From NCBI GenBank assembly GCA_016182795.1, contig JACPFW010000025.1, forward strand, positions 1-64,000: a stretch of DNA of 64,000 nt, in the 5' to 3' direction. The DNA is from Gemmatimonadota bacterium (GTDB lineage Bacteria; Gemmatimonadota; Gemmatimonadetes; Gemmatimonadales; Gemmatimonadaceae). Under the pieces are notes generated by a model, which was not told where the DNA came from, did not search any database, and saw nothing but the letters and a program-made list of their open reading frames with translations. This document shows, one piece after another, positions 50,284 to 58,261 of the stretch. The stretch's first letter is position 1; every line of letters starts with the position of its first letter. Position numbers and translations under genes: made by a program.

Positions 50284-50368
50284 GCCGGGGTGGCGAAACT
50301 GGCTAGACGCAAGGGACTTAAAATCCCTCGGGAGCAATCCCATCCGGGTTCGATTCCCGGCCCCGGCA
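50284..50368 (+). tRNA. tRNA-Leu (TAA)
   Basis: An 85-base class II tRNA. Acceptor arms GCCGGGG/CCCCGGC pair perfectly, the anticodon loop CTTAAAA (anticodon TAA, 50319-50321) is closed by AGGGA/TCCCT, a long variable arm follows and the T-arm contains GGTTCGATTCC. No CCA is encoded. The 3' 52 bases are the left boundary of the integrated element and are repeated at 57152. Confidence 0.97.
50317..50368. other. attL (3' part of tRNA-Leu)
   Basis: Fifty-two bases starting CTTAAAATCCCTCGGGAGCA and ending GGCCCCGGCA, identical to 57152-57203. The identity begins exactly at the first base of the anticodon loop, a frequent crossover point for tyrosine integrases. Confidence 0.95.
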
Positions 50369-50470
50369 CTGTTGCAGTAGAAGGAGTTACGTGACTGACT
50401 ATACCGGCCACGCTGTCGGAAAACGCTTCGACTGTGTCCAAGATCGGCACCAGTCCGGTGGGGTCTGTGG

Positions 50471-51550
50471 TCATACGGCCCCCCGCTCACGGACGCGGCG
50501 CAGGTCTTCGGCGCGCGGTTGGTAGCGGCCGTAGAGCTTCAGAACCAGTGAAGCGTCACGATGGCCTAGGTTCGAGGCGATGATCTGGGGCTCGACGCCC
50601 TGCTTCATCCAGCGCACGGCGATGCTATGGCGCGCGTCGTGCATGCGGTACTCGGGATTCAGGCCGGTCGCCGCCAGCGCGTCGCGATGAGCCTTGCGGG
50701 CCCCTTCGTACGTAAGGCCGTCGAAGACGAACGCGTCAGGTAGCTTGTCAGCGAACACGCGGCGAAGGATGGGCCACGCCCAGTCTTCGACGATGACGGT
50801 CCGCGCACGCCACTCGTTCTTGCTACCCAGCACGAAGACGACTTTTTCGGTTTCCCAGATATCGCGACGTCGAACGCGAAGGGCCGCGCTGATCTCGACA
50901 CCGGCGGCTTCACGCAAGGCAGCAAGCGCTGCGTAGGGAGACGGCTGGGCCTCCACGAGACGTCGCTGGTCGGCTTGGTCTAGGAACTGCGTTCGTCCAG
51001 GGTTCGGGCGGGGAGCACGGATATCGCGGAGCGGGTTGTGCTCGATTACCTCGATCTCTACGAGGTAGTTGGCGAACGAGGACCACGCGGCATGATATCG
51101 CCGTCTTGTGGAACCACTGGTCGCGAGCTGCTGCAGAGCCGCCGAGAGGTCACGGCGACGAAACCGGGACCGGGGGAAGGGAACTCCACTCGGAATCAGC
51201 ACCCGCAACTGGCTCCTGTACTTCGCGACCGTCGCTTTGCCCGCACGGCGTTCGGCCCACGAGATCCACCCGTCAACAAAAGTGTTAAGATCAGCATCGG
51301 AGATTAGCGCGCGATGCCGTTCCAACGGCTCTCCCTCGCTGCGCCACGCGTCGAGAAGTTCTCCGATGCCGTCGGGGCGTGTCTGCGCCGCGAGTAGGAT
51401 GGGCCATTCGCGAAGCGCGGCGAGCCGCGCCAGCATGGTCTCAGCCTCGCGAGCGACCGAATGAACTGTCGTGCCGAGCGAAATCCGCTTGCGACGGCCG
51501 CCCGGCTGGCGGAGGTACGCCCAGTACACGCGTCCGCGTTTCCAAGCCAT
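50471..51550 (-). CDS. Tyrosine recombinase (site-specific integrase)
   Basis: 359 residues. An N-terminal Arap-type strand (R-G-R-V-Y-W-A-Y-L-R) and a SAM-like core-binding domain (about 85-180) precede the catalytic domain. Box II is H-D-A-R-H-S-I-A-V-R (His at about 304), followed by N-L-G-H-R-D-A-S-L-V-L-K-L-Y-G-R-Y with the nucleophile Tyr at about 340. Box I, normally T-G-x-R-x-S-E, reads A-G-V-E-I-S-A, so the first catalytic Arg appears to be Glu (about 219). The ATG at 51550 has GGGGAGG at a good distance and overlaps the upstream AlpA-like gene (TAATG). It lies about 100 bases from attL, as expected for its own element. Confidence 0.92.
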   Translation of the reverse strand: MAWKRGRVYWAYLRQPGGRRKRISLGTTVHSVAREAETMLARLAALREWPILLAAQTRPDGIGELLDAWRSEGEPLERHRALISDADLNTFVDGWISWAERRAGKATVAKYRSQLRVLIPSGVPFPRSRFRRRDLSAALQQLATSGSTRRRYHAAWSSFANYLVEIEVIEHNPLRDIRAPRPNPGRTQFLDQADQRRLVEAQPSPYAALAALREAAGVEISAALRVRRRDIWETEKVVFVLGSKNEWRARTVIVEDWAWPILRRVFADKLPDAFVFDGLTYEGARKAHRDALAATGLNPEYRMHDARHSIAVRWMKQGVEPQIIASNLGHRDASLVLKLYGRYQPRAEDLRRVRERGAV

Positions 51551-51801
51551 TAGGACCTCCCCGCGGCGTCTGGTGCCGCCCGGCCGGCGATGAAGGCCTT
51601 CAGGTCGGTTTCCCGATAGCGTGGCATAGACTTGCGGCTGGACGGGGATGCGAGGTCCACGACTGGAATGTCCTTGTTGTTCTCCAGCCACCGCATCGAG
51701 ACACCGAGAATCGCGGCGGCATCCCTGCGCCGGAATAGTCGGTCGCCGTTGGCGGCGCTCGGTGTCTGTACTAAATTGGAAATGCGCGAGTCTCGATGCA
51801 T
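51550..51801 (-). CDS. AlpA-like helix-turn-helix protein (probable excisionase)
   Basis: 83 residues. A winged/AlpA-type HTH is visible as R-L-F-R-R-R-D-A-A-A-I-L-G-V-S-M-R-W-L-E, followed by basic residues and a Y-R-E-T-D-L-K-A-F-I helix, as in MerR-like excisionase and AlpA proteins. Its TAA overlaps the integrase ATG, the classic xis-int arrangement. Such proteins steer integrase to excision; this role is inferred. Confidence 0.8.
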   Translation of the reverse strand: MHRDSRISNLVQTPSAANGDRLFRRRDAAAILGVSMRWLENNKDIPVVDLASPSSRKSMPRYRETDLKAFIAGRAAPDAAGRS

Positions 51802-52055: not shown

Positions 52056-52427
52056 TCACCGCTCCTTCGGCGGGAAGAAGCCGCGAGGGACTGGGCGACA
52101 TTCGAAGCCGTACCTCTCCGCGAACTTCCGAAGTTCGGAAAGGCGGATGACCTTCACCGCCTCCAATTCAGGTCGAGGGTGGACCTTTTCCCATCGAATC
52201 TTCCCCTCCTTTGCCCAGTTGTAGATCGCCATACGCGAAACCGGCTTACCGCCTCGCTGGATGAGCGTGGCGGCTTCTTGGAACGTGACCAGTCCCGCCG
52301 CCTCGACGGCGCGATGGTATCGTCCGCGAGCGGTCTCCTTGACCAGCAGGGCGTTCTCTCTGTCCATCCAGTAGCCCTCCAGCTCATACTCGCCTTGCTT
52401 GCCGTCCCCGGAACGGTAGTAGGCCAT
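52056..52427 (-). CDS. Helix-turn-helix regulator of the integrated element
   Basis: 123 residues. The central HTH reads V-T-F-Q-E-A-A-T-L-I-Q-R and M-A-I-Y-N-W-A-K-E-G-K-I, typical of DNA-binding proteins from mobile elements. The ATG at 52427 has GGAGGT seven bases upstream, and a strong promoter lies just upstream. It is the first gene of the minus-strand operon ending in the integrase and is probably its regulator. Confidence 0.75.
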   Translation of the reverse strand: MAYYRSGDGKQGEYELEGYWMDRENALLVKETARGRYHRAVEAAGLVTFQEAATLIQRGGKPVSRMAIYNWAKEGKIRWEKVHPRPELEAVKVIRLSELRKFAERYGFECRPVPRGFFPPKER

Positions 52428-52446
52428 TGCACCTCCGTTACGCGAC

Positions 52447-52475
52447 AACATTGTGGTGGCGAGGCAATCTGTCAA
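52447..52475 (-). promoter_or_regulatory. Strong promoter for the element's regulator-integrase operon
   Basis: On the minus strand TTGACA (52475-52470) and AATGTT (52452-52447) are separated by 17 bases. The -10 box overlaps the short palindrome ACAACATTGT, a possible operator. The start codon is about 20 bases beyond the -10 box. Confidence 0.8.
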
Positions 52476-52910
52476 GTAGTAGCAGGCGGCGCACTCGTAA
52501 TAGACCTTCTGAAGTTGTAAAGTAGGCGGCGTTTGTGAGTTCATTCTCAATCACTGAAATTGCGTTTTCGGCTGCGTTTTCAGCTGCATTCTCGTTCATT
52601 TCAACGATTTCACAATGCGACCTGAGGCTGTACACGTAGCGACGCACTGTTTGGCCTTTGTCGGGGCCTACTTGGCACGCGCCGTCCGCAATTGCGGTGC
52701 GGTAGGTGGCGGGTGAGCCGGACAGTATCTGCGGTTGGGACTGCGTATCGCTCCCCGGCTCCGATGAGCGCCGAGCTTTGCGCAGCGACTATCGACCGAC
52801 GACGTGATAACCCGAAGGCGACGACTCCCGCGCGCGTCAGTGCTTGCGCTGCGAACGACTGCTGCGCACTCTAATCCGCGTATTTCACCCTGATTGGGAG
52901 CGAGCGAAAG
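52476..52910. other. Gene-free divergent control region of the element
   Basis: Between the minus-strand operon and the plus-strand cargo lie 435 bases without a supported gene. It holds GAAAACGCA direct repeats near 52560-52585, which could be iterons or simple sequence, and a weak TTGCGC/CTAATC promoter candidate upstream of the TIR-like gene. I see no other structure in it. Confidence 0.5.
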
Positions 52911-53675
52911 ATGAACACCGCCATATCGGCGCGCCTCGTCAAGTTGATCGCCGAGGGGGAGGGCCTGAGCAACGAAAGGCAGATAGAACTGTGGTCGACA
53001 GGAGTCTACTCGTTCCTAGGCACTGCCTTAGGGCCCGGCGAGGCAGAGGCGTTCTTGCGATTGCAGCACACCTTTGACGAGTATAAACAGCACGCTCTTC
53101 GCATCGGTTACCTTCAAGGACTCGTGGCGAAGGCGGAAGCCGACGCGAGCCCAGTGTCAACGGACCCAGCTGCCAACGTGACTGCGCCGGTCGTCGCCAC
53201 CGGCTCCACGCCCTCTGCGAGTTCACGCAAGGTATTTGTCGTTCATGGACACGACGGTGAGGCTAAGGAGACGACGGCGCGCTTCCTTGCGAAACTCGCG
53301 CTACAGCCCGTCATCCTTCATGAGCAGCCAAATGCTGGTCGCACAATTATCGAGAAGTTCGAGACTTACTCGGGCGATATCGCCTTCGCAGTAGTCCTAC
53401 TCACTCCAGACGACGTGGGCGCTACGGCGACTGCTGCAGAGGAACTCAAGCCGAGGGCACGTCAGAATGTCATCCTTGAGCTAGGTTACTTCATCGGCAG
53501 GCTCGGTCGCACAAACGTCTGTGCTTTGCACAGGGGCGGCGTTGAGCTTCCATCTGACTATCAGGGTGTTTTGTACGTAGAGATGGATGCCGGAGGCGCC
53601 TGGAAGGCGAAACTCGCCCAGGAGCTCGTGCAGGCAAAACTCCCTATCGAACTGACCGGGTTGCTTGATGGCTAG
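52911..53675 (+). CDS. TIR-like domain protein (predicted NAD-degrading effector)
   Basis: 254 residues. Residues 1-90 are helical, followed by a low-complexity linker rich in Ser, Thr, Pro and Ala (85-107). The TIR-like domain (PF10137 type, also seen as a CBASS effector) starts V-F-V-V-H-G-H-D-G-E-A-K near 108. It contains L-H-E-Q-P-N-A-G-R-T-I-I-E-K-F, V-L-L-T-P-D-D-V-G and Q-N-V-I-L-E-L-G-Y-F-I-G-R-L-G-R, with the likely catalytic Glu at 190. Related domains deplete NAD+ to stop phage spread. No cyclic-nucleotide synthase is nearby, so its trigger is unknown. The ATG at 52911 follows AGCGAGCGAAAG. It is the first cargo gene of the element and has lower GC than the host. Confidence 0.88.
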   Translation: MNTAISARLVKLIAEGEGLSNERQIELWSTGVYSFLGTALGPGEAEAFLRLQHTFDEYKQHALRIGYLQGLVAKAEADASPVSTDPAANVTAPVVATGSTPSASSRKVFVVHGHDGEAKETTARFLAKLALQPVILHEQPNAGRTIIEKFETYSGDIAFAVVLLTPDDVGATATAAEELKPRARQNVILELGYFIGRLGRTNVCALHRGGVELPSDYQGVLYVEMDAGGAWKAKLAQELVQAKLPIELTGLLDG

Positions 53676-53913
53676 CCGGGCGTTCGTGGAAACGCTGCGT
53701 GAGCGTCGGCAGGCGACATCTGTCTTGGGTCTACCGAACTGCCTTGCGGTGTTCTCTCGCGTACGAAGCACGTGAAAGCGCTGCGTGGCTTCAGTCTTGG
53801 AGCTCTTAGCACTTGGAGAGAAGCCGTTGCGCGCCTACCACGTGAACTGCCATAACTCGCGTGAGGCGTAGTACAGGTGATTGTCACCATGAAACTTGGT
53901 AAATGAGATCAAG

Positions 53914-54975
53914 ATGCCGACGTTCACCCGGCGTGGAGAACATCCTGTCACTGCGGACGCATTTGACCTTGCCGCTCGCCTGGCAACGGAAAGCGGACAA
54001 GGACTGCGGGACTTCTTGGCCAGTGGCGACTCCAGCAGTCTCTTGGAGCGCACCGTAAGGCAGTCAGGCAGTGCTGTGCGATTGCATGGCAGGCGAGTCG
54101 AAGAGATGTTCGGGTACGTGGTCGCCGTCCTCGGGAGGGCCGAGGCCATAAAGAGAGAGGACGGCGGTGCGCTGATCGTGCGCGAAGGCGCGAATGTCAC
54201 AGTGCCGGACTATCGAATAGTCCTGCGAGACCATGCCGAGATTCTGGTTGAGGTCAAGAACTGCCATCACGCCTCGCCTAAGAGACCAATGAGGCTGAGA
54301 CGTACGTATCTCGACGGCCTGCTAGCGTATGGTCAGCTATTCGCGCGTCCCGTATATGTGGCTGTCTACTGGTCTCGATGGCGCACGTGGTCACTGCACC
54401 CAGTAGAGGACCTTCTGCTGGCGTGCGAACAGCGAATCGACTTGTCGATGCTGACTGCGTTTCCCGCTTCTCACATGCACGTTCTGGGAGACGTGTGGCT
54501 CGGCACCGTGTACCCGTTGCGCTTCCGGCTTCGGGTGGACGCCGAGCAGCTCGGAGACGGTACCGAGCGATCCGATTACAAAGTGACGATACGAGAAGTA
54601 CAGATGTCCGCCGCAGGAGTCGAGCTCCTTAACGATGTTGAGAAGAACATAGCGTGGAGTTTCATGCAATACGGACAATGGCATGAAGAAGGACCGACTC
54701 CAGTCTTCGATGGCAAGGCGCTCACAGCCATTGATTTCGTCTATACTCCTGAGAAGGCCGACGACAGTCAGGACTTCGCAGTCCTCGCGGCGGCAAGCGT
54801 CTTGGCGGCTGGTCAATTCAATGCTATCACCACACGGGACGGTGTTGTCACAAGGTTGCACACGAGTAGCATTCATGAACCGCAGTACCCGCGAGGAGGT
54901 ACTCAATACGTCAGCGAGACCCTGCCCATCTGGAGGCTTGCGATGACTCCGACGCCAATCCAGCAGTGGGAGTGA
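53914..54975 (+). CDS. PD-(D/E)XK nuclease-like protein
   Basis: 353 residues from the ATG at 53914 (a TTG at 53896 is also in frame). A candidate nuclease core is V-T-V-P-D-Y with Asp at about 99, then 13 residues later E-V-K (Glu 113, Lys 115), preceded by an acidic helix R-R-V-E-E-M-F-G-Y and followed by A-Y-G-Q-L-F-A-R-P-V-Y. This order fits restriction-endonuclease-like folds. The C-terminal 200 residues match nothing I recognise. It starts 238 bases after the TIR-like gene and is followed by the DUF4145 gene after about 100 bases. Function is predicted: nucleic-acid cleavage, target unknown. Confidence 0.65.
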   Translation: MPTFTRRGEHPVTADAFDLAARLATESGQGLRDFLASGDSSSLLERTVRQSGSAVRLHGRRVEEMFGYVVAVLGRAEAIKREDGGALIVREGANVTVPDYRIVLRDHAEILVEVKNCHHASPKRPMRLRRTYLDGLLAYGQLFARPVYVAVYWSRWRTWSLHPVEDLLLACEQRIDLSMLTAFPASHMHVLGDVWLGTVYPLRFRLRVDAEQLGDGTERSDYKVTIREVQMSAAGVELLNDVEKNIAWSFMQYGQWHEEGPTPVFDGKALTAIDFVYTPEKADDSQDFAVLAAASVLAAGQFNAITTRDGVVTRLHTSSIHEPQYPRGGTQYVSETLPIWRLAMTPTPIQQWE

Positions 54976-55079
54976 GCGCTTCTGTCACTCACCTGCCACG
55001 AGACAAGCGGACTAGGTTTGTCGTCGTCCGGTGAGGACGAAGGACATGTTCACGACGGACCTATACGTAGAGGGCACGA

Positions 55080-55733
55080 ATGGCTCGCAGCTCGCAGGAC
55101 CTCTTCTGCACTCAGTGCAATCTCGTAGTGGTCGCACGGGAGATCGCCGTAGGTCACGGCGATCTGCGGAGCGACGCCATTAACCCGCTGGACGAGATTG
55201 ACGCGGAGTACCGCAGCGAAGTCTACACTGTCCTCATCTGCCCGCGTTGTGCGAGTCCCTTCCTCGTGCGAGAGTCGATCTGGGGCATCCCAGCGGAGTT
55301 TGAGACGGTAACGGATACGACAGTGCTCTATCCCCAGCTCTCGCGAGTCGTCCCGGCGGACGCGCCCGAGTCGGTCTCACGCGCCTGGGACCAGGCATCG
55401 AAGTCGTTCAACGCCGCACTCTACGAACCCGCTGCAATCATGTGCCGACGCTGCCTCGAGGGCGTGTGCGTCGCATTTGGGGCAACTGGGCGCAATCTCG
55501 CAGCCAAGTTGGACTCGCTCGCGTCTGCCGGAGTGATTGACACGCGCCTCAATGAGTGGGCTCACAGCGTCCGGGTTGTCGGCAACGAGGCCGCTCACGA
55601 CGTGTCGGTCGCGATTGAAAAGGAAGATGCAAGAGACGCGCTTGATTTTACGGAAGCGCTCCTCCTCTATGTATTCACGCTTCGGCGGAAGTTCGAGCGT
55701 TTTCAGGAGCGAAGAAGGCCACAGTCCGACTGA
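55080..55733 (+). CDS. DUF4145 protein with zinc ribbon
   Basis: 217 residues. The N-terminus has a zinc ribbon with C-T-Q-C (10-13) and C-P-R-C (54-57). The rest is an all-helical DUF4145 domain with A-A-I-M-C-R-R-C-L-E-G-V and L-N-E-W-A-H-S-V-R-V-V-G-N-E-A-A-H-D. Such domains are common in phage-defence and restriction loci and are often grouped with HEPN-like folds; the spacing R-x7-H differs from the classic HEPN RNase motif, so cleavage activity is uncertain. It is the third plus-strand cargo gene, converging on rep with a 55-base gap. Confidence 0.78.
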   Translation: MARSSQDLFCTQCNLVVVAREIAVGHGDLRSDAINPLDEIDAEYRSEVYTVLICPRCASPFLVRESIWGIPAEFETVTDTTVLYPQLSRVVPADAPESVSRAWDQASKSFNAALYEPAAIMCRRCLEGVCVAFGATGRNLAAKLDSLASAGVIDTRLNEWAHSVRVVGNEAAHDVSVAIEKEDARDALDFTEALLLYVFTLRRKFERFQERRRPQSD

Positions 55734-55788: not shown

Positions 55789-56781
55789 TCAGTGCGGGAC
55801 GCGACGGCTTTCATGGATCACTCTCAGAACAGCTTCGGCCCCACCTTGCTCGGCTGCCTCGAGGACTAGGTATTTTAAGCCGGGACGGTCCCGACACGAG
55901 TCCCATTCCCATCCTGAAAAGGTGTAGACCGCTTCCTCGACGTCCTCTGTGCCGTCCACGATCTCTTTGTCGGTGCGCTCTACGCCGATGCCGGCTGCTT
56001 CCCGCAAACCTCGCGTCCACGTGAGCAATCGCGCCCCTTTCATGCCACGACAATAGGCTTGCCAAAGCAGGGCATCGGATTCGTCTCCTGTTTGTAAGAA
56101 GTCCGCAGCCACTTGGAACAGGGAGCGGCTGGATGACCTCCCGAGCTTCCCGGCCGGGGCGACCAATTCCATTGAGAGACCAAGTTTGGTGAGGTAACTC
56201 GCGTCTGCGCACGGACGCAGGTCGCATCCGTGTACGGCGTCCGGTACCGCGGCCTCACCTAGTGAAAGTGCGACGGCACGACTCCACCGTTCGGCGATGA
56301 ACAGGCGAGCCGCATTCAGGTCGTTACTCGAGAGCCGATCGAGGAACAACAGCACGTGTAGATGGGGATGGAATCCGTTTGGACCCGCCGTGACTTCCAT
56401 GCTGCGGATTGCTCCGCGCATTCGGTAGCGTCGCTTGAAGCGCTGCCACGGTTCACCAGCTTGGACTCGCCGCCATGCCTGTGCGACACCGGCCCGAGTG
56501 CGAGTCAGGTCATCGCCGAGGCCGTGACGGACTGTGAGCGAGAGAAGAAGCAGTGAGCCACCGCTCGCGGTGTGCCATTCCACGACACGGCGCACTTCCT
56601 CCGTGCGCTCAGCGCGGATCGCGGAGCTGCATGTCAGGCACTCATGAACGGACCCGCATCGGAGAACGCCGTGGTAATGTGCGCGACCGCTTCTGAGTGC
56701 CACTTCGACCGCTGGTGCAATCCGGACCCTACCGCACTTCGCGACGCGAGACCGAGCGTAGGGCCGTAGTGCGTCCTTCAC
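55789..56781 (-). CDS. Rolling-circle replication initiator protein
   Basis: About 330 residues. A zinc-finger-like segment C-G-S-V-H-E-C-L-T-C occurs near residue 45. The HUH motif appears as G-F-H-P-H-L-H-V-L-L-F-L near 140, and the nicking Tyr is probably in A-S-Y-L-T-K-L-G near 192. This order is typical of Rep proteins of actinobacterial-type rolling-circle plasmids and integrative elements. The start is uncertain: a GTG at 56781 is the first sensible codon after the hairpin cluster, while the frame stays open to 57558 through attR, which cannot be coding. Rep would nick the origin and start replication of the excised element. Confidence 0.85.
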   Translation of the reverse strand: MKDALRPYARSRVAKCGRVRIAPAVEVALRSGRAHYHGVLRCGSVHECLTCSSAIRAERTEEVRRVVEWHTASGGSLLLLSLTVRHGLGDDLTRTRAGVAQAWRRVQAGEPWQRFKRRYRMRGAIRSMEVTAGPNGFHPHLHVLLFLDRLSSNDLNAARLFIAERWSRAVALSLGEAAVPDAVHGCDLRPCADASYLTKLGLSMELVAPAGKLGRSSSRSLFQVAADFLQTGDESDALLWQAYCRGMKGARLLTWTRGLREAAGIGVERTDKEIVDGTEDVEEAVYTFSGWEWDSCRDRPGLKYLVLEAAEQGGAEAVLRVIHESRRVPH

Positions 56782-56851
56782 CTCATAGCGGAGTCGCCGA
56801 CCCCGATCAGCGCCGCTAGGGGTAACTCTGTTCGTGTTCTTTCCAAGTGTC

Positions 56852-56926
56852 GCGGCGCTCCGCGCCGCGCGCGGGGCTCCGCCCCGCACCCCGGAGAAGC
56901 TTTTATTGGGGCGCACCCGGCGGTGC
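56852..56926. repeat. Three consecutive hairpins upstream of rep (candidate replication origin)
   Basis: GCGGCGC-TCC-GCGCCGC (56852-56868), GCGGGGC-TCC-GCCCCGC (56871-56887) and GCACC-CGGC-GGTGC (56913-56926). The first two have perfect 7-bp stems with identical TCC loops. An AT-rich AAGCTTTTATTGG lies between the second and third. Confidence 0.75.
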
Positions 56927-57151
56927 AAACTGCCACCACCGGCTGCAACCCCCGCATCCCGTTGCCGGTCTGCGCCCACGTAGCTCGGGAGCTTCTCAGG
57001 AACCCGGCTACGCGCCCTCGCGCCGTTTCCGGCGCTTCCATCCGTTGTGTCTGGTTCTGTGCTCGCGATGCTGCGCGAGCGTGCGGAACCGTGCGGCTCG
57101 GTGCGTTGTGTCTCTCTCCGTCGCCGATACCGTCCGTGATGTTCGCTAGCT
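56927..57151. other. Gene-free right end of the element
   Basis: This 225-base stretch lies between the hairpin cluster and attR. It has open frames but none with a start signal or recognisable product; the open rep frame through it is discounted. I see no other structure. Confidence 0.5.
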
Positions 57152-57203
57152 CTTAAAATCCCTCGGGAGCAATCCCATCCGGGTTCGATTCCCGGCCCCG
57201 GCA
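57152..57203. other. attR (duplicated 3' part of tRNA-Leu)
   Basis: Identical over 52 bases to 50317-50368. It lacks the acceptor and D-arm half of the tRNA, so it is not a gene but the original chromosomal tRNA end displaced by integration. Confidence 0.95.
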
Positions 57204-57385
57204 TGACGAGGCAGAGCAGCACCTGAGCGCACCGCTCGAGCAAGCCGCCGCACGGCCACGCGAGCGTCGCGTGTCCGGAATGGCCGTGTCGCAAGCCGCA
57301 CGGCGAAACTTGTGTGGACGGCTGGCGTAAGTAGGACCTGAAGCGCACGAGGCGAAGATCACTCGGCTTCTTCAGGGGCCTTCTC

Positions 57386-58261
57386 ATGAGACTACGACCG
57401 CTGGGCGTTGTCACGGCACTGGCCGTGGGTGCCCTCGGCCTCACTGTCACGGTGCGCGGCTGGCAACATCGCGCTCTCGAAGCGCCGACATCGCCAACTC
57501 TGGCGGAGGTTGTTCGGCTGTCGTCGGCGTGGCCGGTGGCCAGAGGGGCAGGGGTCACCGTCGCGGTGCTCGATTGGCAGTTTGACCCGCGCGGGGCCGC
57601 CGCGTCGCTTTACGTGCATGACACCACATTGGTGAACGGTGAACGGATCGGCGCACTCAAGCCGTGGCACGGGGCCTGGATGGTGGAGCTTGTCCACTAC
57701 GTTGCACCCGAAGCGCGCATCATGCCGATCATCGCACGCAGCCGGAACGAGGACTACCGAGCCTACCTACCCGCCGGCATTCGCTACGCCGCAGCGCACG
57801 GCGCCGCCGTGGTCACGAGTTCCATGGGCGAGATCCAGCAGACGGAAGCGCTGCGCGACGCGATTGCCTACGCCGAGTCGCGCGGAACGATCTTCGTGGA
57901 TGTTCACCCGGAGTTGGTGGTGGGCGATTCCGGAACGCTCGTGCAGTGCCGTGGCGGCGAGTGTGACGCCCGCATCGTGCGCGCCGGGGTCGTGTCGGTC
58001 CCAAACCATCCGGTGAAGCCGAACGGCGCACGGGACGTCTACTCGTGGCCGTACGATCTGAAGGCCCGGTTTAAGGACGGCTGGGGCTTCTCCAATGCCC
58101 CACCCGTGGTGGGTGGCGTTCTGGCCCTCATGAAGAGTGCCAATCCGAACCTCTCGTCGCGTGCCCTCAGGCAACTCGTGGTTGAGACCGCCTACGAGTC
58201 GAATGGCTTCCGAGTGCTCGATGCCGGCGCCGCGGTGCAGGCGGCACGGGCGGCGCGGTGA
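57386..58261 (+). CDS. Subtilase-like (S8) protein, secreted
   Basis: 291 residues. A signal-anchor-like N-terminus (M-R-L-R-P-L-G-V-V-T-A-L-A-V-G-A-L-G) is followed by a diverged S8 fold: V-A-V-L-D-W-Q-F-D for the Asp (normally D-T/S-G), K-P-W-H-G-A-W-M-V for the His and W-G-F-S-N-A-P-P-V-V-G-G for the Ser (normally G-T-S-M-A-x-P). The triad could still be present, but the surrounding motifs differ from active subtilisins, so activity is doubtful. It is the first chromosomal gene beyond attR, and the methyltransferase follows after 22 bases. Confidence 0.7.
   Translation: MRLRPLGVVTALAVGALGLTVTVRGWQHRALEAPTSPTLAEVVRLSSAWPVARGAGVTVAVLDWQFDPRGAAASLYVHDTTLVNGERIGALKPWHGAWMVELVHYVAPEARIMPIIARSRNEDYRAYLPAGIRYAAAHGAAVVTSSMGEIQQTEALRDAIAYAESRGTIFVDVHPELVVGDSGTLVQCRGGECDARIVRAGVVSVPNHPVKPNGARDVYSWPYDLKARFKDGWGFSNAPPVVGGVLALMKSANPNLSSRALRQLVVETAYESNGFRVLDAGAAVQAARAAR

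Follow-up and report, generated by a model that had tools for sequence, protein, structure and literature searches.

The stretch analyzed here, 64,000 nucleotides of contig JACPFW010000025.1 from a Gemmatimonadota bacterium (assembly GCA_016182795.1) and referred to below as the window, carries a 6.8-kb integrative element that lies between exact 52-bp copies of the 3' end of a tRNA-Leu gene. Its cargo consists of three genes, which encode a TIR protein (cargo 1), a PD-(D/E)XK protein (cargo 2), and a DUF4145 protein (cargo 3). A preliminary description of the window had proposed that these genes form one stand-alone anti-phage module. That interpretation was partly supported: its domain calls proved mostly right, and its central claim of a three-gene system was not borne out, as homologues of the three genes were not found together in any locus as far as searched. 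Our data suggested that the cargo slot of the element probably holds three separately acquired defence-type effectors that do not make up one system. This corrects a plausible but unsupported reading, in which adjacent genes were taken for one system, and splits out parts that can be tested. The outcome is an integrative element that is compact, of an ordinary kind, and loaded with defence-type genes, together with an uncharacterised nuclease family to which cargo 2 belongs.

Occurrence of the cargo families in other genomes

Each of the three proteins was used as a query (E≤0.01) against 61 fetched loci, which do not include five loci of the window's own genome. A single family was found in 55 of these loci and none in the remaining 6, and no locus held two. 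Once duplicates had been removed, a second family was present in 0/24 gene-2, 0/15 gene-1, and 0/5 gene-3 loci, a sample in which several loci are shortened by contig ends (e.g., L031, L034, L035, and L038) and two gene-1 loci (L060 and L061) carry the same match. A conserved trio was rejected because the families did not co-occur in any fetched locus. Relatives of cargo 2 were detected in 3/99 relative genomes (E≤1e-3) and in 3/298 genomes of the phylum (E≤1e-5), and at E≤1e-10 cargo 1 was detected in 1/149 and cargo 3 in 3/149 relative genomes; the sole genome common to the three families in the relative-genome counts was the window's own, which is included in them. Within 13 genomes that have cargo 2 relatives, a TIR profile matched in one and PF13643 in four, at coordinates beyond the fetched ranges.

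The surroundings of the cargo 2 relatives were further examined by a Pfam scan of 30 chosen neighbours from 19/24 loci. None of these neighbours matched PF10137 or PF13643, the families of cargo 1 and cargo 3, and 13 matched nothing. Other neighbours include T5orf172, PIN, histidine phosphatase, FRG, RiboL-PSP HEPN, GmrSD, and DUF3800 proteins, together with an OLD-like ATPase, an IS110 transposase, and housekeeping genes. Some recurred within a lineage, namely T5orf172 in two scanned Rhizobiaceae loci and histidine phosphatase in two viral contigs.

Ends, backbone, and cargo slot of the element

The ends of the element are two plus-strand direct repeats of 52 bp at 50317-50368 (attL) and 57152-57203 (attR), which are 100% identical with a spacing of 6835. 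attL is the 3' end of the tRNA-Leu(taa) gene that served as the integration target, called by ARAGORN at 50284..50369 on the plus strand. A tyrosine integrase is encoded on the minus strand at 50471..51547 (Phage_integrase E=1.1e-9; phrog_1 E=7.9e-31), in an open reading frame (ORF) that extends to 51916. Two helix-turn-helix (HTH) proteins follow on the same strand: a small, excisionase-like one at 51550..51801 (phrog_66 E=0.003; HTH_17 E=0.017, under the cut-off), whose relatives adjoin related integrases in two other genomes (L076 and L079), and a second, likely a regulator, at 52056..52550 (HTH_17 E=0.042, under the cut-off). The three consecutive plus-strand cargo genes lie where the preliminary description had placed them, at 52911..53675, 53914..54975, and 55080..55733, and beyond them a rolling-circle-type replication protein (Rep) is encoded on the minus strand at 55868..57078, with an uncertain start codon in a frame of 55789-57558. 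The G+C content was 61.0% for the interior of the element and 58.8% for the cargo, versus 68.5% for window bases 1-50000, and the third-position G+C of the cargo genes was 0.65-0.72 versus 0.84-0.92 in three host genes, in agreement with the lower G+C of the cargo noted before. Promoter and terminator scans gave results near chance (1 versus 0.8 expected and 3 versus 2.2 expected, respectively).

Rep resembles replication proteins of small plasmids and phages. Its Pfam match to Rep_1 had an E-value of 6e-8 with 32.9 bits, just below the cut-off of 33.2, its match to phrog_11698, a family of unknown function, had an E-value of 2.6e-60, and its identity to the 'protein rep' of small plasmids was about 30-39% in the best 20 of 150 records. 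A scan of the viral collection with Rep found no relative. No att-like repeats were seen around the Rep matches of genomes G035 and G336 within the examined stretches, and the Rep matches in G001 and G005 spanned only about 50 residues. The related Rep gene of G035 (L046 8331-16388) stands beside an ORF that resembles a serine recombinase by eye, and further on are ORFs that resemble type III restriction-modification genes by eye.

A site lacking the element was found in a same-genus genome, G008, in which a galactokinase gene is followed by tRNA-Leu with a single att copy, susD (87% identity), and susC (84%). Only about 90 bp separate the tRNA gene from susD, and no integrase or Rep match was observed in this 6-kb stretch. 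The corresponding stretches of G001, G004, G005, and G010 likewise contain one att copy and no integrase, Rep, or susD match, and have different end points. Integrase, flanking att repeats, and an empty site are thus all present, with the empty-site genome differing by a further stretch; this is an integrative element with computed ends and a site that lacks it, as the placement of the genes on an integrated element had implied.

The cargo slot was defined by comparison with a sister element in G102, a genome of the same family, whose Rep has about 51.5-53% identity to that of the window. The sister (L045 2322-9671) has an exact 43-bp repeat at tRNA-Lys and again 7307 bp downstream, and its order is tRNA-Lys, integrase, HTH, three overlapping plus-strand genes, a MerR-like HTH, and Rep beside the second repeat. 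The sister HTH aligned with the second HTH protein of the window at 31% identity over 93 columns (E=1.4e-6), and the integrases of the two elements have little in common (24% over 123 residues). The first of the three sister cargo genes, a 127-residue ORF, gave no Pfam match, the second matched the MqsA antitoxin (E=3.5e-5, under the cut-off), the third matched SecB (E=1.6e-8, over the cut-off), and none had a clear PADLOC match. Judged by these matches, the layout of the sister cargo would be toxin-antitoxin-chaperone-like; some systems of that kind, such as CmdTAC, defend against phage (PMC11618068). The same frame with a different cargo in the sister is the strongest positive evidence that the trio of the window is a cargo load. 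In our reading, a backbone of integrase, HTH proteins, and the Rep_1-like protein would frame a cargo slot of variable content. ARAGORN also called a tRNA-Pro(tgg) inside the sister (L045 6568-6653), flanked by the SecB-like gene and the following ORF, so the middle of the sister may have its own history.

The element resembles defence-bearing integrative elements and phage satellites in its tRNA att repeats, integrase, small replication gene, and defence-type cargo. Defence systems encoded by elements of this kind have already been published (PMC8791490). It differs from them in its Rep_1-like backbone, which in the window and the sister spans 6.8-7.3 kb, and its occurrence in Gemmatimonadota, and no phage packaging or relaxase gene was detected among the seven element ORFs scanned (Pfam and PHROGs). 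A literature search on Gemmatimonadota integrative elements, defence, and tRNA returned no title on this element among the matches listed. It represents a compact element type, the one known sister of which bears other cargo.

The three cargo proteins

Cargo 1 consists of an N-terminal part of about 95 residues, which varies widely among relatives, and a CAP12/Pycsar-type TIR domain (PF10137, E=1.2e-38). R184, N186, E190, and D216 were invariant in 13/13 rows of alignment A5, which comprises the window protein (P0001) and 12/15 gene-1 loci, L061 (same match as L060), L065 (short), and L052 being left out. These residues align, with the same spacing, with R78, N80, the catalytic E84, and D110 of the SfSTING TIR domain, in which D110 is contributed by the dimer mate (PMC9402430); the pairwise match itself is weak (E=0.046). 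The Cap12 structure 9lmq was matched with an E-value of 5.9e-7. The call of a TIR-like protein with a likely catalytic Glu190 was thereby upheld. Cargo 1 would stay silent until infection is sensed through its N-terminal part and would then assemble, so that Glu190 and Asp216 of the dimer mate could complete an NAD+-cleaving site and loss of NAD+ could stop the cell.

Five PADLOC models of the defence candidate PDC-S35 matched cargo 1 with E-values from 3.7e-71 to 1.3e-44, the best over residues 96-249. The likeness covers the TIR half, aligned nearly to its end, whereas the matches begin at residues 88-102 and leave most of the N-terminal part outside. A literature search on the term PDC-S35 returned no paper. 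The PADLOC TIR effector and PycTIR models matched less closely (E=3.3e-13 and 7.4e-11), and the NCBIfam Cap12 models reached 33.6 of 450 bits, far below the cut-off. Cargo 1 thus shares with the CBASS Cap12 and Pycsar PycTIR effectors the PF10137 domain and the spacing of the SfSTING catalytic residues. Unlike them, it is accompanied by no STING or cyclic-nucleotide-sensing domain and no linked cyclase gene, by Pfam, among the seven element ORFs, nor was there a CD-NTase or methyltransferase match in this set, as the preliminary description had also observed. A CBASS, Pycsar, or Thoeris locus was rejected, since no partner was found among the scanned ORFs (Pfam, PADLOC, and NCBIfam).

Relatives of cargo 1 are encoded in 1143 plasmid records, with best identities of about 60% over the TIR half, and their surroundings differed among the six records opened. 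In four plasmid loci (L049, L050, L053, and L054), an ORF of about 93-96 residues lies directly upstream of the TIR gene and touches or overlaps it; the three such ORFs scanned had no Pfam family above the cut-off. This small ORF may be an unrecognised partner of that plasmid TIR subfamily.

The start of cargo 2 is most likely ATG 53914, giving 353 residues, because relatives begin there; this codon fits them better than the listed TTG 53896. No Pfam family lies above the cut-off (best DUF790, E=0.077), and the window member matched nothing in PADLOC or PHROGs and nothing of note in NCBIfam, which makes cargo 2 the newest piece of the element. PADLOC type II restriction-enzyme models matched one member each of the 19-member alignment A3 (best E=0.0014). 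A3 comprises the window protein and 18/24 gene-2 loci, L034 (partial) and L005-L009 (plasmid and phage records) being left out. G59, R61, E63, E82, D99, E113, K115, and N116 were invariant in 19/19 of its rows; in the relative L006, in alignment A1 and outside A3, Arg replaces K115. The D99-x13-E113-x-K115 motif, proposed before as a nuclease-like core, is therefore present and conserved. Neither this motif nor Glu190 of cargo 1 is ascribed to chance, because they are conserved in 19/19 and 13/13 rows, respectively, a conclusion that does not come from the bare motif. A first alignment of cargo 2 had no stretch conserved enough for scanning, and a scan of the genome collection with cargo 2 alone found no relative.

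A structure of cargo 2 predicted from the 19-row alignment had a pLDDT of 86.9 and a pTM of 0.82, superseding an earlier model from four sequences (pLDDT 60.9). It contains a helix at 54-73, strands at 76-81, 87-90, 100-104, and 109-117, a helix at 130-142, and a strand at 147-153. In a Foldseek search of the PDB, the best match was an archaeal Hjc (E=8.2e-4, the sole match below 0.001; probability 1.00), with 22% identity over 109 columns and TM-scores of 0.59 by target and 0.22 by query, followed by RecU and then, more weakly, SPARDA entries. Several of the top named matches in a viral structure library were likewise RecU or Holliday-junction resolvases. The likeness to Hjc and the PD-(D/E)XK superfamily lies in the nuclease core, whereas Hjc has about 120 residues against 353 in cargo 2 and lacks its beta-rich C-terminal part. 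A PD-(D/E)XK fold with an alpha-beta core and the D, E, and K residues is thus well supported by the model, in line with the preliminary assignment, and nuclease activity is predicted. Cargo 2 would cut nucleic acid through an Hjc-like site formed by E63, D99, E113, and K115, and its C-terminal part might select the target or the trigger.

In the E. coli phage PhiR11_1 (L009, PV340547.1, 1937-5856), a cargo 2 relative lies between FRG-domain and RiboL-PSP HEPN-like genes, and its position near a side tail fibre gene is likely a moron slot; among the publications retrieved for PhiR11 and ECOR13, no title or abstract start treated this phage. In the Rhizobiaceae loci L005, L006, and L033, the gene immediately upstream of the relative encodes a GIY-YIG protein, identified by Pfam as T5orf172 in L005 and L033 and by annotation in L006, and it is possible that this gene is a real partner of cargo 2 relatives in that lineage.

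Cargo 3 matched DUF4145 (PF13643) with an E-value of 4.4e-23 and 81.6 bits, against a curated cut-off of 23.1. CxxC pairs at residues 10 and 54 probably form a split zinc ribbon; the Pfam zinc-ribbon model matched weakly (E=0.015, 15.9 of 30.8 bits), so that, of the earlier call of a zinc-ribbon DUF4145 protein, the DUF4145 part stood firmly and the ribbon was left as probable. DUF4145 has been assigned to the HEPN superfamily, the catalytic members of which carry an Rx4-6H motif (Anantharaman et al. 2013, PMC3710099); for DUF4145, the table of that study lists the motif as mostly conserved (80%). R165, G168, N169, and H173 were conserved in 6/6 rows of cargo 3 and its relatives, giving R165-x7-H173; the spacing is seven in all six rows, outside the strict motif, and because of this the RNase activity of cargo 3 is uncertain. 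Cargo 3 would bind nucleic acid and may be a HEPN-type RNase. The PADLOC model of PD-T7-4 (PMC9519451), for which no cut-off is given, matched in part (E=1.2e-11, 42.5 bits), in an alignment restricted to residues 42-182. Cargo 3 shares the DUF4145 domain with the DUF4145-HEPN families, and the strict motif of catalytic HEPN proteins is absent. The statement that the trio is not a named system held in that no named system covers all three genes, and it needs qualification in that gene 1 matches PDC-S35 and gene 3 in part matches PD-T7-4.

A scan of the viral collection with cargo 3 found no relative. In Virgibacillus phage Mimir87 (MK560763.1), a DUF4145 gene (L057 4210-5139) separates the distal tail protein gene from that of the next tail protein, and a DUF4145 protein is present as 24 chains in PDB entry 9y9c; a structural role in phages is possible for some members of the family.

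Competing explanations for the cargo

Several observations weigh against separate effectors in an exchangeable slot. We know of no defence assay for any of the three cargo genes. The genes are adjacent, co-directed, and the sole cargo, as in an operon, and their similar G+C (58-61%) offers no argument for separate origins. On plasmid CP135082.1, a distance of about 16 kb separates matches to gene 1 and gene 2, and a rare linked case could have been missed because few database records were opened (6/1143 plasmid and 0/5 phage records for gene 1, 4/43 and 1/2 for gene 2, and 2/11 and 1/7 for gene 3). The case for an exchangeable slot comes from a single clear sister element. Further, most of the 1.8 kb from attR to susD is missing in G008 as well, so that the region differs by more than the element: its stretch is without the subtilase gene, a 56% relative of which is on another contig, and without most of the methyltransferase ORF, and a weak 94-residue match to the end of this ORF overlaps both the tRNA gene and the final part of susD. 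With these points taken into account, we still favor three effectors that were probably acquired separately, are predicted to act in defence, and would benefit the element that carries them.

A further proposal, which we put forward tentatively and consider somewhat doubtful, is that cargo 2 represents an undescribed stand-alone family of defence nucleases, in which an Hjc-like domain is joined to its own C-terminal targeting domain, and which may be carried between unrelated bacteria by prophages, plasmids, and integrative elements, its neighbours varying by lineage; in addition, the cargo slot of the Rep_1/integrase element of Gemmatimonadota would be a site for exchangeable defence genes. 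Relatives of cargo 2 were found in Gemmatimonadota, Acidobacteria, Proteobacteria, a Peptococcaceae bacterium, and two E. coli phage records. If the nuclease is protective alone, it would provide a new single-gene model for defence-finding tools.

It is unlikely that the cargo genes serve addiction or competition between elements, retaining the element or excluding rivals, and not phage defence as such. TIR and PD-(D/E)XK domains also serve as toxins in many systems. The relatives of gene 1 are common on plasmids (the 1143 records above), the sister cargo is toxin-antitoxin-like, and HEPN domains act as toxins in many systems (PMC3710099). However, the only non-overlapping plus-strand ORFs of 80 residues or more in 52551-55733 are the trio itself, which leaves none of that size as a candidate antitoxin, and PADLOC lists gene 1 among defence candidates.

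We regard as quite improbable a pairing of two of the three genes, such as a restriction-like pair of the nuclease with the DUF4145 protein, the TIR gene being independent. The gap between genes 2 and 3 (104 nt) is shorter than that between genes 1 and 2 (238 nt), and fusions of DUF4145 to restriction endonucleases are known (PMC3710099). In PhiR11_1, about 480 nt beyond the gene-2 relative, there is a HEPN-like protein, a different one of the RiboL-PSP type that scored just under the cut-off. However, none of the gene-2 loci had a gene-3 match in its fetched flanks, and the PF13643 matches in 4/13 genomes with gene-2 relatives lie outside the fetched ranges.

Least probable of all is cooperation of a zinc-ribbon HEPN sensor, the nuclease, and the TIR NADase in a single stand-alone anti-phage system, for although the genes are adjacent on one strand as the sole cargo of the element, the TIR and DUF4145 proteins match PADLOC models of defence candidates, and DUF4145 recurs in conflict loci (PMC3710099), no second example was present in any locus examined, the families have other neighbours in the records opened, and the genes are spaced by 238 and 104 nt.

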